In this document: positions 7,868 through 47,190 of the stretch, in pieces
Position numbering within the stretch: position 1 is the stretch's first letter
How the letters are laid out: each line of letters opens with the position of its first letter
Source of the DNA: an uncultured Armatimonadota bacterium
GTDB taxonomy: Bacteria > Armatimonadota > Fimbriimonadia > Fimbriimonadales > Fimbriimonadaceae
Length of the DNA: 64,000 nt
Assembly (NCBI GenBank): GCA_903833215.1
Contig: CAILEM010000025.1
Coordinates: 1-64,000, forward strand
Direction of reading: 5' to 3'
The notes under the pieces: model-generated
Databases searched by the model: none
What the model saw: only the letters and a program-made list of their open reading frames with translations
What the model was told of the DNA's origin: nothing
Position numbers and translations under genes: made by a program

Positions 7868-8398
7868 ATGGGAATCGTAGAAGACATTGTTGAAAGGTTG
7901 CGGTCCCCGGCGGTGGATCTGCGAAAAACCAACGTTTCGGAGAGATTTCGGGTACGCCCGACTGGCCCGACCAGGACCACCGTGAGAACCACCCAATCGA
8001 TTGTCGATCGATTTGTGGTCGGTTTATCTGTCGAGAAGGATGCCCGCGCGACACGGAGCGGCACGCCTCCGACGACGCCCGATTCATCCCCGCCTCGGGT
8101 TGGACTGTTGGATAGCTTCTCCGTCGCTGTGCGACCGCAGGTGTCCGCCCGCGAAGCGGATTCTCGGAAACCTGAACCCCAATCCCAGACCATGGATCAT
8201 CGGATCGAACTCCGCCAATACGCTATCGGCGGTGGCCAGGAGGGCAAGGTCGGAGTAACGCCAACCGAGTTGGCCGTCATTACCCGTCCCAACCACAGCC
8301 TGAAAGGCCGCCTGGTTGCCGCCATCGAAGACTATATCGCGGACGGCCTCAACCACCACACCGCCGCGCTCATCCGCCAAGGCATCTTGCCGCGCTAG
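7868..8398 (+). CDS. Phage protein of unknown function in the tape-measure position
   Basis: A 176-aa protein four bases after the frameshifted stop, with a GGGGGAG site. It occupies the slot of the tape-measure gene but is far shorter than usual, Arg/Pro/Thr-rich in the middle (SGTPPTTPDSSPP), and not a long coiled coil. The C-terminus (LKGRLVAAIEDYIADGLNHH) is helical. It may be a miniature tape measure, a small tail protein left after loss of that gene, or a fragment. No motif is recognised. Confidence 0.5.
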   Translation: MGIVEDIVERLRSPAVDLRKTNVSERFRVRPTGPTRTTVRTTQSIVDRFVVGLSVEKDARATRSGTPPTTPDSSPPRVGLLDSFSVAVRPQVSAREADSRKPEPQSQTMDHRIELRQYAIGGGQEGKVGVTPTELAVITRPNHSLKGRLVAAIEDYIADGLNHHTAALIRQGILPR

Positions 8399-8410
8399 CA
8401 GTCCCCACAA

Positions 8411-8455
8411 GCGCCAAAGGTGCGCCCCAACAATAGCCTAGGGCATCGCCCTAGG
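8411..8455 (-). repeat. REP unit left of the RAYT gene
   Basis: The unit consists of GCGCC-AAA-GGTGC, a spacer (GCCCCAACAATAG) and the palindrome CCTAGGGC-AT-CGCCCTAGG. It equals the reverse complement of the unit at 9113-9158 with about one mismatch, so the transposase gene lies between inverted REP units. Confidence 0.85.
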
Positions 8456-8500
8456 AATTCAGTTCGGTGTAGAATTCCACGAAAAATATCGGGGTGCATC

Positions 8501-8953
8501 TTGCCACAATCCCTCAGCCTCATCCTTGTTCACATAGTTTTCAGCACCAAAGATCGCGTTCCTCTCCTCTCTCCAGAAGTGGCTCCGCGGCTACATAGAT
8601 ATCTCGCGACGGTTTCCCGGGGAATGAGCTGCGACTGTTATGCGGCGGGAGGAGTTGCAGACCATGTTCATCTGGCTGTGACCCTTGGCCGCACAGTGTC
8701 CATGGCCAAATTCATAGAGGAGGTTAAGACGTCCTCGTCAATGTGGCTAAAGGCTGATTCACCCCGTCTCAAGGACTTCGCCTGGCAGCGTGGGTATGGA
8801 GCGTTTTCTGTCGCGTATGACAATCGAGGGGCCCTCATTGAGTACATCAACAATCAAGAGGTTCATCACCAGAAATTGACGTTCAAGGAAGAGTACATGC
8901 AGTTTCTCCGCGAGAACGGAATAGAGCCAGATCCGCGCTATATGTGGGATTGA
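8501..8953 (+). mobile_element. REP-associated tyrosine transposase (RAYT), IS200-like Y1 family
   Basis: A 150-aa Y1 transposase starting at a TTG (product MPQSLSLILVHIVFSTKDR, the family's usual opening) with GGGGTG upstream. The HUH metal-binding motif is seen as DHVHL and the nucleophile Tyr in EYINNQEVHH. Length is normal for the family and no frame damage is seen. RAYTs are single-copy enzymes thought to spread REP palindromes, and REP units lie on both sides here. It sits between tail genes of the prophage, so it either inserted there or was carried in by recombination. Confidence 0.88.
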
Positions 8954-8963
8954 CCAATGACAT

Positions 8964-9160
8964 CAGGGCGATGCCCTAGCCTAATGTTGTTGCACACCTC
9001 GTCCTAGGGCGGTGCCATAGGCTAGTGTTGGGACGCACCGTTGGTGCTACAGATCGGGGGCACACCTCGTCCTAGGGCGGTGCCCTAGGCTAGCGTTGGG
9101 ACTCACCTTTGGTCCTAGGGCGATGCCCTAGGCTATTGTTGGGGCGCACCTTTGGTGCTT
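8964..9160 (+). repeat. Tandem REP cluster right of the RAYT gene
   Basis: Four tandem units begin at about 8964, 9003, 9070 and 9113. Each has a CCTAGGGCG-rTG-CCCTAGG palindrome, a short spacer and a CACC-nTT-GGTG hairpin, with scattered point changes. The last unit is the inverted partner of 8411-8455. This fills most of the 222-bp gap before the next tail gene. Confidence 0.85.
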
Positions 9161-9176
9161 TTAGGAACCTTTTTCT

Positions 9177-11546
9177 ATGCCATATCCTCTATCGATCATT
9201 CTCGACCCTTCCCAGGAACGGCTTAGCCGGGATGGGTTGTCTTGTTTGGTTTCGGGGCGGGACTGGGATCCGGCGAATTGGACGGATATTTGGGTCGACC
9301 CGGTGACGAACACCTGTATGCTCCGGCCCGCCCCGAAATACCCGGACTGGGCCACTTCGAATACCGGCATCTTTGCCAAATGGGGACTTTCCGATTTCAC
9401 TCTCACCCCGTCAACCGGTTGGCTGTCGCACAATGTCGATCAAGGTGGGGCATTTATGTATTACAACGCCCTCAATTCCGGTGGACTCTCAGGAGTCGGC
9501 CCAACCCTTGGCGTCAACCAACCGATCGTCATCGACCTCTTTAGTCAGGGAGCAACCAATGCGCCTTACGGCATTCTCGACATCGGGTGGTCCAATACCG
9601 GGGACTCGACGGCGGGGATTGCCGTTCGCTTCTATGCGGATGGGAGCGCCGACGTGTACAAAGGCGGATATCTTTCGGGCCACTATGCGGGGGGCGGAAG
9701 CAGCCCAAACTACTTCGATTCCGCCCTCGCAACCGGCAAAACACTCGGGGGTGGATCGACACCGATGGCCCCACGCGGCTACCAAACGATCATGCTTATC
9801 CCATGCCGAGATCGAGAGCTCCTCGTCATCTCGAGTATGGGCGGCTCGTTCTGCCACATCTTCCAAGACCTCGCCGAGGGTACGCCCGGACTCACGATAA
9901 CACCGGGCGAAAAGTTCTGGTTCAGGGTTCAACCCCAAGCTTCTGCCAACCTTCGATTTGCCAAACTGCAATACGCGGCGAGCGGCTACGTTTGTGGAGT
10001 TCAAAGTAATTGGCGACTCGACCCGCCCTCCGGCGATCCTGCTTTCGAGGTTTTCCAATCGCTATCGCAGGCGGGAGCTTCGTTGGCCACGGCGAGCGCG
10101 ATCACTCCTTCCGGCAACCCATTCGATGTGGCCAATCCGATCCAAATCAAAGTCATCCTTACGCGTGGAAGCGCACCGGATTGGACTCCCTTCGTCTATG
10201 GTGCCCGGGCCTACTTTAACCCCCAGACCGCAAATTCTACGGGGTCGGCATTGGAGTTGCTGCCTTACGTCACCGGATTCCATCTCGATGTATCGGACAC
10301 GATCGGTGGTACCCGGGCCTCGATCAGCTTAAAGCAACCTGCCGCGATTGAAGCCGCCGGTGGTGTTGCGATCACCACCCAATGCCATCGTCCCATCCAG
10401 GTTTCCGATGAAGTGGGCATGATGGTGAACGGCGTTGCTGAGCCACCCCATTGGACCGATGCCTATGGCTTCACCTCAGACGGAAGCGATCAGAACCAAT
10501 CCATAGAGATTGAGCTTCGCGACCTCTGGAAGTTGGCCGAAGAGTACGTTTTCAGCGACCCTATCCCCCTCGATGGGTTAAGCCTCAGCGATGCCTACAT
10601 CTTGGTAGCGACCATGATCGGATTTCCCCTCGATCGCGTGTACGTTTCGCCGAGCGCGACCGACTTCAACCTGCCCTGGACGGCCGCTTCGGGCGGAGAC
10701 TGGGCATTCCTTTGCGATATCGGAGACAAGGGCTCCGAAATCCTGGATCGTCTCCACCAGACCTATGCTGCCACGTGGTTTCACGGTTTCCGTCCCAATC
10801 GAGCAACGCCATCATCACCACCTATCCTCAGCCTGATCGATCCTTCGGACACGACCCCGAACTACGCATTGCCGACCACCGCATCGGTGACCCTCTATCC
10901 ATCGGTGACGATGGCGGGTGCGTCGTGGAACACGGTTTATCGGTCTTACCGAACCCAGGTCTTGGAACCTGAGGCGAACGACATCTCGGTGATTGGCAGA
11001 GATCCTCGCGGCGGCAAGCCAATCGTGGCCCATCGGGCGGATACTGCTTCGCAGGCGGTGGGGACATCGCCTTCGGCTCGCCCGGCGAACTGGTTGGGCA
11101 CGATCCGCAAATACGGATGGATCGACCCCGCGATCACCACCATGACGGCCGCTCAATACGCGATCAGTCTGCTTCGGTCACGATTGATGATTGCGCGCGA
11201 GATCATCGAATTCGAGTGCGAATATCTGCCCGGAGTCTGGCGTGGTGACCTCGTTACCCTTATTCGCCCGGCAGCGGATCCGGTAACCGTGCGCATCAAG
11301 ACTTTCAGCGGCTCTTTTGAGAACGTCGGGACGTTCGGTGACTCGGATTCTGCCGATGCCGTGTGGCGTCCCTGCCGATACGTGGGTGAAGTTGGGACCA
11401 TTGTCTGCCCTCTCGACGTCCACGGCACCAGCGTTCAGGCCATCGGCCGGAACTGGAATACGTTGAAAGCGCTATCCAAACAACGCATCGTCGACGGAGG
11501 CGAAATCATCGCCCGGCGGCCGGTTTTGAATCAGCAGGAGGGGTAA
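9177..11546 (+). CDS. Large tail protein, baseplate hub-like
   Basis: A 789-aa protein after the chaperone region, with an AGGAAC site. The N-terminal ~300 residues are rich in Gly/Ser and aromatics and look like a concanavalin-like or carbohydrate-binding beta domain (DIGWSNTGDSTAGIAVRFYAD). The C-terminal half (VTGFHLDVSDTIGGTRASISL, then a late RGDLVTLIRP segment) resembles hub proteins of phage tails. No protease or lysozyme motif is seen. It probably forms the tail tip; the assignment comes from size and position. Confidence 0.55.
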   Translation: MPYPLSIILDPSQERLSRDGLSCLVSGRDWDPANWTDIWVDPVTNTCMLRPAPKYPDWATSNTGIFAKWGLSDFTLTPSTGWLSHNVDQGGAFMYYNALNSGGLSGVGPTLGVNQPIVIDLFSQGATNAPYGILDIGWSNTGDSTAGIAVRFYADGSADVYKGGYLSGHYAGGGSSPNYFDSALATGKTLGGGSTPMAPRGYQTIMLIPCRDRELLVISSMGGSFCHIFQDLAEGTPGLTITPGEKFWFRVQPQASANLRFAKLQYAASGYVCGVQSNWRLDPPSGDPAFEVFQSLSQAGASLATASAITPSGNPFDVANPIQIKVILTRGSAPDWTPFVYGARAYFNPQTANSTGSALELLPYVTGFHLDVSDTIGGTRASISLKQPAAIEAAGGVAITTQCHRPIQVSDEVGMMVNGVAEPPHWTDAYGFTSDGSDQNQSIEIELRDLWKLAEEYVFSDPIPLDGLSLSDAYILVATMIGFPLDRVYVSPSATDFNLPWTAASGGDWAFLCDIGDKGSEILDRLHQTYAATWFHGFRPNRATPSSPPILSLIDPSDTTPNYALPTTASVTLYPSVTMAGASWNTVYRSYRTQVLEPEANDISVIGRDPRGGKPIVAHRADTASQAVGTSPSARPANWLGTIRKYGWIDPAITTMTAAQYAISLLRSRLMIAREIIEFECEYLPGVWRGDLVTLIRPAADPVTVRIKTFSGSFENVGTFGDSDSADAVWRPCRYVGEVGTIVCPLDVHGTSVQAIGRNWNTLKALSKQRIVDGGEIIARRPVLNQQEG

Positions 11547-11956: not shown

Positions 11957-11993
11957 GTTCTGGACGTCGGTACGATCACCGCCGACTACGGCG
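11957..11993 (+). repeat. Dispersed repeat R4, copy 2
   Basis: Contains TCTGGACGTCGGTACGATCA and continues CCGCCGACTACGG, matching the copies at 1656 and 15184. It lies about 75 bp before the next tail gene. Confidence 0.75.
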
Positions 11994-12069
11994 CGGGCGA
12001 AATTTCTCCGGCCGATTGTTTCTGACCGGGTGAATCTCCACAAGACGCGTGAGTGGAACTAAAAATATC

Positions 12070-15036: not shown

Positions 15037-15080
15037 GTTGGCACAGACCTCGATGTGTGCATTTCGTCATCTCTACCCAG

Positions 15081-15214
15081 CCCCGTAGTCGACGGTGATT
15101 GTACCGACGTCCGGAAAACAACCCGATGAATCCAGCAACGGCGTGCTTCCAACCGAATCGGCACCTGAAATCCTTCTGCTGCTGCGTCGGTACGATCACC
15201 GCCGACTACGGGGG
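15081..15214. repeat. Inverted pair of R4 repeats
   Basis: An inverted copy at 15081-15114 (CCCCGTAGTCGACGGTGATT onward) and a direct copy at 15184-15214 face each other across about 70 bp, so the transcript could form a long stem. The surrounding gap, 15037-15711 (675 bp), contains no convincing gene. Confidence 0.75.
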
Positions 15215-15296: not shown

Positions 15297-15363
15297 CCCG
15301 CAAGGGGTCCGGAAAGGGAAAGTCCAACTCGTCTCCCTCCTTCGCAAAGCTACGGCGGAGGAA
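15297..15363 (-). repeat. Repeat R7, copy 1 (shared with 36.5 kb)
   Basis: About 65 bp (GGGGTCCGGAAAGGGAAAGT onward) match the reverse complement of 36547-36610 almost base for base. One copy is inside the prophage and the other in host sequence, so this is a genome-wide repeat rather than a phage feature. Confidence 0.75.
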
Positions 15364-20615: not shown

Positions 20616-20686
20616 TTTCTTCGACCTGTGTTCGCAGGGATTATCGTTGTGATCACGAGCCCCAACATACCCACGACAAAGCAACC

Positions 20687-20757
20687 CTTTCCGGTATAGC
20701 AAGGCCATTCCTCTCCAATCACGAAGGGATGGCCTCCCGAGAGGCCTTCCCTGGTAC
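20687..20757 (+). repeat. Repeat R2, copy 1
   Basis: TTTCCGGTATAGCAAGGCCA, then the hairpin GGCCTC-CCGA-GAGGCC and CTTCCCTGGTA. Related copies lie at 21962-22055 and 22396-22490. Copy 3 has GGCCCC-GCGA-GGGGCC, a paired change that keeps the stem; copy 2 keeps only the outer GGCC pairs. Confidence 0.8.
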
Positions 20758-20769
20758 CCCGGCCGCCTG

Positions 20770-20985
20770 CCGTTTCCTATGCTGAAAGCGTTGCGTCTGG
20801 GGCTCTCCGGCGAGTTACTGCTTTCGAGAGCTTCGGTGTAACGGCCTCGGCGATCATCATGCGATTGGCCGGTGACGCTATACCTTTGGCATAGACGGCA
20901 CCTCTCGCCACAAAATCCAGGCTAGAGCTGTCGCCAGCTCAAGCCTTCGCTTTTTGCAGATCATCGCCTTTGGCGAATGGGGCGG
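20770..20985 (+). repeat. Repeat R1, copy 2 (long form)
   Basis: About 215 bp that match 22490-22690 at high identity, including GCGTTGCGTCTGGGGCTC, TTCGAGAGCTTCGGTGTAAC, GCCGGTGACGCTATACCTTT and the hairpin GAGCTG-TCGC-CAGCTC. Together with the R2 copy before it, this forms a composite repeat that recurs at 22396-22690 around the lipoprotein gene. The whole gap 20616-21227 holds only these repeats and a short unassigned stretch. Confidence 0.8.
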
Positions 20986-21227
20986 GTGGATGATATCGAC
21001 CGTCCGAATGTTTCTTTGTTTCACGTCCGGTTTTGAGAATAACTCGCCATACGAAAGCGTATTTGGGGCTAATCTTTGGGGGGCTGACGATCCCAATCAA
21101 TGCTGAAACATCTTTGAAGGTGGCTAAGCCAAAATCGGATTCTGGAAGTCATTCGCCTGTAGAGGAATTCAGTTGTATGGTTAGTCGGCAGGCGAACACA
21201 TTACTCCGAGCCAGCGTAAATAGCAAA

Positions 21228-21947
21228 ATGGGACATTTCCGCCCTGTAGGACACGGCCTTGCGCTTCTTGCTTGTGCATTGTGCTGCTCTTGTGGGGGTG
21301 GCGGCACCGCCTCGCCATCGATGCTGCAGATCATGCCACTGGGAGATTCCATCACCGCTGGAACCGGAATGGTTCCTGGTGGTTATCGTGAGATGTTCGA
21401 CCAAGACCTCTACCCCAAGTACCGATTTCGCTTTGTCGGCACGCTGAGCTATGAATCTGATGGGATGAGATCACCCTGGCACGAGGGGCATTCCGGATGG
21501 TCCACGCTGGATTTCGTTGGGGGGACCGTCGTCGCGGGACGTCCGAAATTCCCAGCGTCAGCCTTTGTCGCTAAGGCTAAACCTGACGTTATTGTCTTCC
21601 ACCTTGGGACCAATGATGGCGTCGAAGAACCTGAGATGGAGAAGCGATACAACGATTGCTTGACCGCGATTTATTCGGTCGCTCCAAAGGTCAAGATCGT
21701 GTGGGCGCTATGCCTTTGGAAGAAGGGCGGCAATCAGGTGAGATTGATTACAGCCACTCACGACGCAGCCAACGCTGTCGCCAAAGTTTGGCAGGCAAAA
21801 GGCAAGCAGATCGTTGTCGTAGACCCAAGCGTAGGCTTCGATCCCGTGACGATGACAGAAGATGGCACCCATCCCACGTCCCAGGGATATCGACTTCTGA
21901 CCGATGCGATCGAGAAAGGATTCGAGCAGATCATGACCAACCCCTGA
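21228..21947 (+). CDS. SGNH/GDSL hydrolase lipoprotein
   Basis: A 239-aa protein. I placed the start at the ATG at 21228 because it gives a lipoprotein signal (GLALLACALCCSC with a lipobox-like Cys). The SGNH blocks are clear: IMPLGDSITAGTG (Ser near residue 40), the Gly of GHSGWST, HLGTNDG and EDGTHPTSQGY. It should be an anchored esterase acting on acetylated sugars or lipids outside the cell. It lies between two copies of a composite repeat. This is the third SGNH domain within 4 kb, but the sequence differs enough that a recent duplication is not evident. Confidence 0.8.
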   Translation: MGHFRPVGHGLALLACALCCSCGGGGTASPSMLQIMPLGDSITAGTGMVPGGYREMFDQDLYPKYRFRFVGTLSYESDGMRSPWHEGHSGWSTLDFVGGTVVAGRPKFPASAFVAKAKPDVIVFHLGTNDGVEEPEMEKRYNDCLTAIYSVAPKVKIVWALCLWKKGGNQVRLITATHDAANAVAKVWQAKGKQIVVVDPSVGFDPVTMTEDGTHPTSQGYRLLTDAIEKGFEQIMTNP

Positions 21948-21961
21948 TTCGCGGGTAACGG

Positions 21962-22055
21962 TTTCCGGTATGGCAACGCCGTTCATCTCCAAGAAGCGAA
22001 GGGATGGCCCCGCGAGAGGCCTTCCCTGGTAAATGGGTCCAAGTTGAAATTTCTA
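21962..22055 (+). repeat. Repeat R2, copy 2
   Basis: About 94 bp close to 22396-22490, from TTTCCGGTATGGCAACGCC through CTTCCCTGGTAAATGGGTCC to GAAATTTCTAC. It ends at the stop codon of the minus-strand gene at 22057. Confidence 0.8.
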
Positions 22056-22056
22056 C

Positions 22057-22293
22057 TTACCATTCAGCGCGAAGCTCGGCGATGTAGGCGTCAACTTCCG
22101 CAGCACTTTTAAATCGATTAGGTGATTGCCTTATTTGATCAATAATGCCCATATAATCTGGCAAGGCATCGGACTTTTCGACGACAAACTCGTCGACCAA
22201 CTCAGGGTGGGCACTGAGGCGCTGCGTCAGGCCCGTGAGCTTGGCTTTGAGCTCGGGACTCGTGCTGTCGGGGATGATGGTCTCAAGTCGCAT
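22057..22293 (-). CDS. Small antitoxin-like protein, orphan
   Basis: A 78-aa protein with a good AAGGA site upstream of its ATG. The sequence is helical and charged and ends AAEVDAYIAELRAEW, a pattern common in small proteins encoded before PIN-domain toxins. No toxin gene follows, only a repeat. It may be an orphan antitoxin or an unrelated small protein; no domain can be named safely. Confidence 0.5.
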   Translation of the reverse strand: MRLETIIPDSTSPELKAKLTGLTQRLSAHPELVDEFVVEKSDALPDYMGIIDQIRQSPNRFKSAAEVDAYIAELRAEW

Positions 22294-22395
22294 TGTCGTC
22301 CTTATTCTGACGCCTCACGTCTGTGTATCGTTTCTGACCGCCCAAGACTAACACGAAGTTGAGGCACCACGTCACCCTCGAGCCACACGTCAACA

Positions 22396-22695
22396 CTTTC
22401 CGGTATGGCAAAGCCATTCTTCTCCAAGAAGCGAAGGGATGGCCCCGCGAGGGGCCTTCCCTGGTAAATGGGTCCACGTCGAAATTTCTACGCCATAGGC
22501 GTTGCGTCTGGGGCTCACTGCCGAGTGACTGCTTTCGAGAGCTTCGGTGTAACGGCCCCAGCGATCATCATGCGATTGGCCGGTGACGCTATACCTTTGG
22601 CATAGACGGCGCCCTTCGTTCCATGATCCAGGCTAGAGCTGTCGCCAGCTCAAGCCTTCGCTTTTTGCAGATCATCGCCTTTGGCGAATGCGAGG
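22396..22695 (+). repeat. Composite repeat R2+R1, second copy
   Basis: R2 (22396-22490) runs directly into R1 (22490-22695), in the same order and orientation as 20687-20985. The two composites are direct repeats about 1.7 kb apart, enclosing the SGNH lipoprotein and the antitoxin-like gene. The rest of the gap 22294-22395 holds nothing recognisable. Confidence 0.8.
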
Positions 22696-22725
22696 GGTGG
22701 GTTAATATCGACCCTGCGCTGGTGT

Positions 22726-30054: not shown

Positions 30055-30398
30055 CCGACGAACAGTTTGACGATCTCGCCCGAAAGGCCCTCGCCTTCGA
30101 CGCTGGCCCCACGAGTCAATCGTCATGGCACCGCGTCCAGCCAGTTCGGTGGGCATGGCTACCCACCCTTCGCGAAATCATGATCTGCGGATGCGTCGGT
30201 GCTGCCGCACTCACATTAGTGAGTGTGCGGATCAACCATGGCGCCCCTTCACCACCGAAACCCAACGCAGTGGTTCAGGCAGCCCTGCCAACGCAGCGCC
30301 GGTCACTCCTCGCCGAGGTGACCCGGATCGATGGCACTGATGAACGGTCCGCAGGATTCGTTCCTAAGCTCAGGCGGATCGCTACGAGCCCCAATTAA
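30051..30398 (+). CDS. Putative membrane anti-sigma factor
   Basis: A 115-aa protein starting at a TTG that overlaps the sigma stop. It has a short N-terminal cytoplasmic segment (TDEQFDDLARKALAFD), one membrane helix (IMICGCVGAAALTLVSV) and a ~50-residue outer tail. No HxxxCxxC zinc motif is visible, so it is not a classic ZAS protein. The role is inferred from size, topology and coupling; the architecture resembles CnrY-type short anti-sigmas. Confidence 0.65.
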   Translation: MTDEQFDDLARKALAFDAGPTSQSSWHRVQPVRWAWLPTLREIMICGCVGAAALTLVSVRINHGAPSPPKPNAVVQAALPTQRRSLLAEVTRIDGTDERSAGFVPKLRRIATSPN

Positions 30399-31288
30399 AT
30401 GGAGCTCGCAATGGCGTGGCCAACCTCGGCGAGAATCGCATCTCGGTGGGAATTGGATTCGGAGGCGTTCGTGAGATACGCCGTGACCAAGATTGGCTTG
30501 CGATTAGGTGGCCAGAGAACGGCGATGTCGTTCGTCGTTCTGTGACCGCTACCGGTCTTATCGCCAACCTTCCAGTCGCGAGGAAGGCCGGCGCGCAGTC
30601 GGGGGGCGCCGGTCTTGTTTTCGAGCAACCACTTTGTGAATTGGGCACGGCTTTTGGGCTTGAGCACGTTGCCGAACACAAACTTATGAAGGTCTTCCAG
30701 CATCGCGGTTGGAGTCGTCGTGTCTCGTGGATCACCGGGTTTGCCCTCGTTAAGGTCTGGTTCGATACGGTCGAGGCGCGAATCGACGTCGCCGATTGAT
30801 CGCCAAAAGCGAGTGATGGCAGACGGGCCACCGCAACTCGCAACGAGTAAGTTGGCCGCGGTGTTGTCGCTGACTGTCATTGCAGCTACGCAAAGCTCCG
30901 TGATGCTTAGCCCTTCCCCGCCGACGTGGAGCTTCGCGACAGGCGCATATTGCAGGAGATCCTTCTCGTGGATGATGATGCGCCGATCCTGCTGCTCGAA
31001 TCCCTGATCCACACGTTGAAGCACCAACGCGGTGGTGGACGCCTTGAACGTGCTGCACATCGGAAAGCGCTCGTCTCCCCGATGAGTAACGAGTTTGCCG
31101 GTTCCTGTGTACAACACGGCAACTCCTAGCCGGCCCCCGCTCCTTTGCTCGATGCCGGCGAGTCGGCTCTTCAGGTCTTGATTGATGGGTATGTGTGCCA
31201 ATGTGGGCGTCACAAGGCCCGCTACTGACATGGCAATGACTCCTCCAATCAAATCCCGACGACTGACCAAATAGGGGTGTTCTGTCAT
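30395..31288 (-). CDS. Class A beta-lactamase
   Basis: A 297-aa exported serine beta-lactamase. The signal region has a twin Arg (VSRRDLIGGVIAMSVAG), suggesting Tat export. Active-site motifs are complete: STFK (Ser79, Lys82), SDN, the omega-loop EPDLNE with the general-base Glu, and KTGSG. Cys precedes the nucleophile (MCSTFK) as in several broad-spectrum enzymes, but position 238 is Gly, so the disulfide of carbapenemases of that type is absent. It hydrolyses beta-lactams in the periplasm; the spectrum cannot be predicted. It converges with the anti-sigma gene with a 4-bp overlap. No mobile element is adjacent, so it is probably intrinsic. Confidence 0.9.
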   Translation of the reverse strand: MTEHPYLVSRRDLIGGVIAMSVAGLVTPTLAHIPINQDLKSRLAGIEQRSGGRLGVAVLYTGTGKLVTHRGDERFPMCSTFKASTTALVLQRVDQGFEQQDRRIIIHEKDLLQYAPVAKLHVGGEGLSITELCVAAMTVSDNTAANLLVASCGGPSAITRFWRSIGDVDSRLDRIEPDLNEGKPGDPRDTTTPTAMLEDLHKFVFGNVLKPKSRAQFTKWLLENKTGAPRLRAGLPRDWKVGDKTGSGHRTTNDIAVLWPPNRKPILVTAYLTNASESNSHRDAILAEVGHAIASSI

Positions 31289-36546: not shown

Positions 36547-36610
36547 GTCCGAGCCTCCGCCGTAGCTCTGCGAAGGAGGAAGACGAGTTGGACTTTCCCT
36601 TTCCGGACCC
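36547..36610 (+). repeat. Repeat R7, copy 2
   Basis: Reverse-complement partner of 15297-15363 (GAGTTGGACTTTCCCTTTCC within it). It is part of a 475-bp gap (36409-36883) that has no gene and holds several repeats. Confidence 0.75.
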
Positions 36611-36661
36611 TGCGGGCGGGTGGTGTAGGGGTGATCACTCCGCCGGCTGAACCCGTCCGAG

Positions 36662-36705
36662 AGCACCAACGGTGCGCTCCATAATAGCGAAGGGCAACGC
36701 CCTGG
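36662..36705 (-). repeat. Distant REP unit of the RAYT family
   Basis: GCACC-AAC-GGTGC, a spacer and GAAGGGC-AA-CGCCCTGG follow the same plan and much of the sequence of the unit at 8411-8455, 28 kb away in host sequence. It supports the view that the RAYT in the prophage belongs to this genome's REP family. Confidence 0.7.
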
Positions 36706-47059: not shown

Positions 47060-47190
47060 ATCCGTCGGGTAGCCCTGAAAGGGCGCCCCTATACCAGCCC
47101 AGGCTAAAAGCCTGGTGGAACGCGCCGCCCAACCCGTAGCGCTGTAAGCGCGCCCCATCTCGTCAGTGGGCATCGCCCATTGACTTTGAT
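47060..47190. repeat. REP-rich gap with R6 copy 2
   Basis: Consecutive small palindromes: CCCTGAAAGGGCG, CCAGGCTAAAAGCCTGG, AGCGCTGTAAGCGCG and GTGGGCATCGCCCAT. The part 47141-47187 matches 36731-36777. An open frame across this gap on the minus strand is a by-product of the repeats, not a gene. Confidence 0.75.

Follow-up and report, generated by a model that had tools for sequence, protein, structure and literature searches.

Inverted composite repeats flank a subclass-1.2 TnpA-Y1 transposase in an Armatimonadota prophage and in relatives from at least nine phyla

A 64,000-nucleotide stretch of DNA from an uncultured Armatimonadota bacterium, referred to here at its full length as the window, contains a small transposase gene enclosed by inverted repeats within a prophage. 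With good confidence this locus can be read as a REPtron of a REP class that is not described in the literature searched, made up of a TnpA-Y1 enzyme of subclass 1.2 and its inverted cognate repeats, which colonised a resident prophage. TnpA-Y1 proteins of subclass 1.2, as defined by Quentin et al. (2018, PMC6006769), carry the motifs DH[IV]H, WQ and YxxxQxxHH, as opposed to YxxxNP in the REP-associated class 2; that study reported them mainly from Cyanobacteria and Bacteroidetes and described them as lacking REPs and terminal structures.

Anatomy of the element and its prophage setting

The Y1 transposase open reading frame (tnpA) spans 8501–8953 on the forward strand, has a TTG start, is intact and encodes a subclass-1.2 protein of 150 residues that matches Pfam Y1_Tnp (PF01797, E 3e-23). 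The codons of the His-Val-His HUH motif (residues 55–57), placed from the translation and the relatives' alignment, lie at 8663–8671 (forward strand), and those from Y115 to Q119, which read YINNQ and are followed by EVHH, at 8843–8857 (forward strand); the latter is a class-1 Y motif, not YxxxNP, and H55, H57, Y115 and Q119 are all intact.

The gene is bracketed by two inverted arms of 56 nt each, at 8401–8456 (forward strand) and 9113–9168 (reverse strand), which are 93% complementary and hold complete 48-nt units at 8409–8456 and 9113–9160. Compared as reverse complements, these two units are 98% identical and differ at a single base, and to the right of the gene lie four units that are inverted relative to the single unit on the left. 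The preliminary description had reported about one mismatch between the left and rightmost units, four units on the right and a compact, REPtron-like arrangement with inverted REPs, all of which is borne out.

The left unit, which is bipartite and in canonical orientation (forward strand), consists of the hairpin GCGCC-AAA-GGTGC, the linker GCCCCAACAATAG and the hairpin CCTAGGGC-ATC-GCCCTAGG, and ends about 44–45 nt from the tnpA start codon. The right-hand units all lie on the reverse strand: unit 1 (8965–8999) is degenerate and 86% complementary to the left unit, unit 2 (9002–9049) is complete and begins about 48–49 nt past the tnpA stop codon, unit 3 (9071–9112) has an intact large hairpin and a degenerate small hairpin that runs into unit 4, and unit 4 is the complete unit of the right arm. 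The 22-nt REP core has four matches in the window and none in 100 shuffles.

The element lies among structural genes in a Mu-portal prophage. Their cluster includes a Mu-type portal and a capsid gene, and within it the element starts 3 bp past an upstream prophage gene (7868–8398, forward strand) and stops 8 bp short of a downstream structural gene (9177–11546, forward strand). The location is as unusual as had been remarked. In the earlier wording 'prophage tail operon', the prophage holds, and 'tail' is a guess from gene order, plausible as such, because the two genes flanking the element match no tail profile.

The window contains further repeats. One of 35–42 nt recurs in direct and inverted orientation between prophage structural genes (1652–1694, 11957–11997, 15075–15116 and 15177–15211), and a 57-nt inverted pair, 96% complementary, has one member in the prophage region (15305–15361) and one between host genes (36554–36610), making it another repeat common to host and prophage. 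Beside the prophage, direct repeats at 20682–22700, up to 216 nt long (89%), surround a GDSL/SGNH-type hydrolase gene and form a second repeat family, and a gene at 30395–31288 resembles, by eye, a class A serine beta-lactamase (STFK, SDN and KTG motifs).

A composite repeat family at the transposase gene

The flanks of 80 loci encoding relatives were analysed, the loci being picked by similarity to the query; the relatives belong to Verrucomicrobiota, Acidobacteriota, Planctomycetota, Lentisphaerota, Chloroflexota, Pseudomonadota, Thermodesulfobacteriota, Ignavibacteriota and Bacteroidota. A composite unit is present within 700 bp of the gene at 78 of the 80 loci, which is read as a correction of the description of subclass 1.2 as lacking REPs: in contrast to the published account, composite REPs flank the gene here, in at least nine phyla including Bacteroidota. 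Up to 700 bp from the gene the unit density is 1.54 per kb, which falls to 0.115 per kb at distances above 1.5 kb; shuffled flanks give 0.024 per kb. The nearest upstream unit is in plus orientation in 58 of 76 cases and the nearest downstream unit in minus orientation in 48 of 57, and the units are inverted about the gene at 41 of the 55 loci with units on both sides. The median spacing between unit and gene is 54 and 47 nt, close to the 45 and 49 nt of the window.

Read on the canonical strand, the common plan starts with hairpin 3 (AG-RGCC-AAM-GGCYC), followed by 3–5 nt, CATACCAG and hairpin 2 (CCTGGGGC-AAC-GCCCCAGG), and continues after about 22 nt with hairpin 1 (AGGGCT-GAA-AGCCCG) and CCAT near the gene. 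This gene-proximal third hairpin, which is common in the relatives, is not evident in the window units. Each of the three hairpins usually has AG in front of it, and for the large one this sequence is [ATG]TAG or CCAG; the foot is AATAG in the window and CCAG in most relatives, with GTAG only in some genus-mates. A strict descriptor search was positive upstream of the gene in 10 of 28 genus-mates and missed many, because their stems and linkers differ.

The hairpins are supported by covariation, as 11 of 13 stem pairs have changed on both sides among 55 units, a result that 0 of 500 shuffles reaches. Because these first 55 units had been selected for pairing, the test was repeated on units chosen by the linker motif alone, in which 82% of hairpin-2 cells pair, compared with at most 45% when slid. 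A covariance model (R1), trained only on other phyla, with training units chosen for perfect stems and none of them from the window's genome, finds the unit at 9113–9160 with 43.2 bits (E 2.6e-10), the left unit with 41.2 bits (E 9e-10) and right unit 2 with 35.8 bits (E 2.7e-8).

A link between the enzyme and a genomic repeat family, as well as the count of copies that would bear on it, had been proposed in the preliminary description, and the genome-wide count upholds it. The window's genome has at least 45 BLAST matches and at least 88 R1 matches, these and the other repeat counts being lower bounds from draft genomes and MAGs. The units are thus not restricted to this locus, since they occur genome-wide and include two solo units in the host part of the window, both on the forward strand between host genes: one of subfamily B (36661–36705, foot ATAGCGA, R1 37.1 bits) and one of subfamily C (47070–47116, foot TATACCAG, R1 35.0 bits).

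These subfamilies follow the gene copies, as three copies in the genome are each flanked by a distinct one: A, with foot ACAATAG and stem CCTAGGGC, at the window copy; B, with its ATAGCGA foot and stem AGGGC, at C50; and C, with foot TATACCAG and stem CCAGGCT or CCAGGGT, at C122. In RAYT/REP systems each enzyme is known to have its own repeat subfamily, with a foot that is conserved and a stem that is hypervariable, and the constant foot, hypervariable stem and enzyme-specific subfamilies found here match that pattern.

Relation to Acido-Lenti-1 and co-occurrence with the gene

The repeat is similar to the Rfam family RF01687, 'Acido-Lenti-1 RNA', in its two-hairpin core and linker, although RF01687 is catalogued as RNA and models the opposite strand. 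Both arms of the Terriglobus albidus element score above gathering and the units flanking relatives reach 38–42 bits against a gathering threshold of 37, whereas the window units, which are the best RF01687 matches in their region, fall below it at 30.4 bits (9113–9160, E 1e-4) and 27.8 bits (8409–8456).

In the relevant passage of Weinberg et al. (2010), Acido-Lenti-1 is rated as probably RNA and not cis-regulatory. A 2026 paper describes its function as little known, and PMC13298647 (2026), on Tannerella forsythia, reports copies near KLIKK protease genes, suggested to be possible protease regulators; the literature passages found to mention Acido-Lenti-1 contain no link to a transposase. 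The T. forsythia copies near KLIKK proteases may themselves be REP-type mobile repeats.

The presence of the repeat tracks that of the gene. Of 117 genomes from one verrucomicrobial family, 53 have the gene and 64 do not; RF01687 is present in 46 of the former and 10 of the latter (p 2e-15), and R1 matches in 49 and 15 respectively (p 7e-15); all 53 gene-positive genomes have an RF01687 or R1 match, and the gene-negative ones have at most 9. Among 41 relatives of the window's genome, R1 matches occur in 11 of 16 gene-positive and 2 of 25 gene-negative genomes (p 8e-5). The association is weaker in Bacteroidota (RF01687 in 31 of 94 gene-positive versus 11 of 104 gene-negative genomes, p 2e-4), because the repeats there have other stems, and a Persicobacter plasmid copy from this phylum keeps the inverted plan. 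RF01687 is found in 0 of 14 control genomes. Since some gene-negative genomes hold repeats (the 15 with R1 and 10 with RF01687 among the 64 above, and the genus-mate G005), repeats can persist without the enzyme; G005, with 12 units and no subclass-1.2 gene, was apparently orphaned after enzyme loss.

That the repeat acts as RNA, either as the Acido-Lenti-1 non-coding RNA or as leader or terminator hairpins of mRNAs, so that its link with the gene is regulatory, is unlikely. Besides the published rating, this reading can draw on the entry of the family as an sRNA in Rfam and on the mispairs of the canonical strand, where G-T outnumbers A-C by 18 to 5 in a small sample of related units, as G-U-type pairs would in RNA. 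Regulatory hairpins are, in addition, known on IS200 mRNAs. However, Rfam models the reverse complement of the strand that tolerates wobble pairs, and the G-T excess suggests that the folded strand is the one whose hairpin has the AG foot on its 5' side. The RNA reading also sits poorly with the arrangement of the units, which flank the gene in inverted orientation and form palindromic pairs without a gene, with their tandem arrays and their numbers of tens to hundreds in a genome, and with a copy number that follows the transposase gene. Because the repeat flanks the enzyme gene and co-occurs with it in other phyla, sequence comparison suggests that Acido-Lenti-1 is more probably the DNA target of subclass-1.2 TnpA than an RNA.

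The enzyme lies on the IS200 side

The window enzyme has the motifs YINNQEVHH, DHVH and WQ of subclass 1.2; the combination of DH[IV]H, WQ and YxxxQxxHH is present in 98 of 101 homologues (the window enzyme included) and YxxxNP in none of the 101. The tail past the Y motif is conserved in the relatives' alignment (for example TFKEEY..FL...GI..D..Y.WD), fitting the C-terminal tail of about 30 residues of subclass 1.2, with which the enzyme also shares its HUH, W and Y motifs, its length of about 150 residues, its low copy number and its divergent paralogues. The protein scores 62.5 bits against NCBIfam transpos_IS200 (NF033573, cut-off 55) and 23.3 bits against REP_Tyr_transpos (NF047646, cut-off 80); all 38 aligned relatives match the former, and only 4 of the 38 match the latter at E 1e-3. 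Its predicted HUH fold (pLDDT 88) is most similar to the IS608 and ISDra2 TnpA structures (Z 13.7), with the E. coli RAYT 4er8 more distant (Z 10.0). H55, H57, Y115 and Q119 are invariant in the 38 relatives, from which the window TnpA is judged to be probably active. In the tree, the window copy groups with two further copies from the same genome (support 96/92).

An ordinary IS200/IS605 insertion sequence of subclass 1.1, whose end hairpins are merely REP-like, is distinctly unlikely to account for the locus. The transpos_IS200 cut-off is exceeded and the predicted fold is closest to IS608 and ISDra2, with which the HUH-Y1 fold, the catalytic residues and hairpin ends with a guide 5' of the hairpin are shared, and empty sites indicate that gene and arms can be gained or lost together. 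Nevertheless, the other tnpA copies in the genome are only 48–57% identical to the window copy, so that the paralogues are old and divergent, unlike those of an active insertion sequence, and no tnpB was seen. IS200 ends are not inverted copies of each other, as the ends are here, and the repeats far outnumber the genes (at least 88 versus 4 here, and at least 145 in two Acidobacteria).

The preliminary description had called the gene a RAYT, which would make it a class-2 enzyme; motif, profile and tree instead place it as a subclass-1.2, IS200-side TnpA. The class-2 TnpA-REP/RAYT REPtrons and REPINs of E. coli, Pseudomonas and Stenotrophomonas are alike in having one gene between inverted arrays of hairpin repeats that are dispersed intergenically, a 5' foot ending in AG and gene-less inverted pairs, and low copy number and divergent paralogues are common to both. 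A standard class-2 RAYT with GTAG-type REPs is very improbable all the same, given that the Y motif is YxxxQxxHH instead of YxxxNP, that the two profile scores fall on the IS200 side, that the repeat is a two- or three-hairpin unit whose foot is CCAG or [ATG]TAG (AATAG in the window) and not GT[AG]G, and that the true class-2 genes of the same genome branch far from the window enzyme. Three class-2-like RAYT genes of this genome (G000 C99:31642, C59:8205 and C109:51253) lack such a unit in their flanks. Quentin's class 3 was also considered and rejected, as its motifs (NHVH / W[TA] / YxxxxQ) do not fit.

Gene-less pairs, empty sites and entry into the prophage

Granulicella mallensis and Terriglobus albidus, with at least 145 and at least 150 units respectively, contain many gene-less inverted pairs of 190–280 bp, the equivalents of REPINs, in which the arms match those of the gene-bearing copy and a short hinge replaces the gene. 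At least one gene-less inverted pair (L156) is present in the window's genome.

Sites without the element are found in both settings. The flanks of the gene-bearing element of G. mallensis are 93% and 97% identical in a sister genome, G374, which is without the element, and the corresponding site measures 31–218 bp in other species. At this site G374 has an interrupted class-2 RAYT with different hairpins (G374:C1:554200-555200, L260; MPEHIHLL, YIHMNP), so that the same intergenic site has been used by two kinds of REPtron. An empty site in related prophages, which had been suggested as a check, is likewise found: in prophages of three genus-mates, homologues of the two genes flanking the element adjoin one another at about 25, 110 and 400 bp, with no transposase between them and no R1 match, the downstream gene being 57–65% identical. 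The insertion boundaries are imprecise, because the related prophages are too diverged and the Granulicella sister site is filled by another element.

The empty site in related prophages fits a host element arriving in a resident prophage, and colonisation of the resident prophage by such an element is the simplest reading. The suggestion that the prophage is a possible vehicle is, by comparison, unsupported: IMG/VR (2.9 million contigs) holds no close relative of tnpA, 50,697 phage records gave a single tnpA match at 29% identity, and the viral searches turned up nothing close to the flanking phage genes or to the window-type repeat, so that the vehicle was rejected as a candidate. That the element is phage-borne cargo carried between hosts is extremely improbable, since its place in a virion-gene operon and one IMG/VR contig with solo units are set against these viral searches, the related prophages without the element and a tree in which the closest kin are two copies elsewhere in the same genome. 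The contig in question (IMGVR_UViG_3300047171_000146, L238/L239; 21 kb) carries three solo three-hairpin units between phage genes and no transposase.

A proposed mechanism

In the mechanism proposed for the REPtron, the cognate repeat would be the composite unit of two or three hairpins, each with a 5' AG foot, with Acido-Lenti-1 as its putative core. When the DNA becomes single-stranded, for instance on the lagging strand at the replication fork, the strand with the AG foot 5' of the hairpins would fold and a TnpA dimer would bind the hairpins, with the foot ([A/G/T]TAG or CCAG) acting as the guide. A guide role has been proposed for the GTAG foot of the TnpA-REP systems of E. coli and Marinomonas, where its AG can select CT (PMC8266576). 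From the AG that precedes the hairpins here, cleavage at CT-type sites is predicted, and Y115 would nick at such a site nearby, after which the ends would be rejoined. In this manner TnpA would excise or copy single units and inverted pairs and, less often, the gene together with its arms, all of which may still be mobile at the present day. Tens of copies would thereby have spread into the intergenic DNA of this genome, and one gene-bearing unit would have entered the prophage.

Implications

A repeat class can now be assigned to a transposase subclass that was reported without any, and a candidate function is available for an Rfam 'RNA' family that is still annotated as a possible regulator. 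The wider proposition, to which we would give an even chance, is that Acido-Lenti-1 acts not as RNA but as single-stranded DNA, forming the ends of a widespread mobile system. This system would consist of subclass-1.2 TnpA and composite three-hairpin ends in inverted orientation, would move both gene-bearing elements and gene-less, REPIN-like pairs, and would represent a living intermediate between IS200 transposons and domesticated REPs. As an IS200-side enzyme is here combined with a REPtron-like DNA layout, it may illustrate how transposons gave rise to REP systems.
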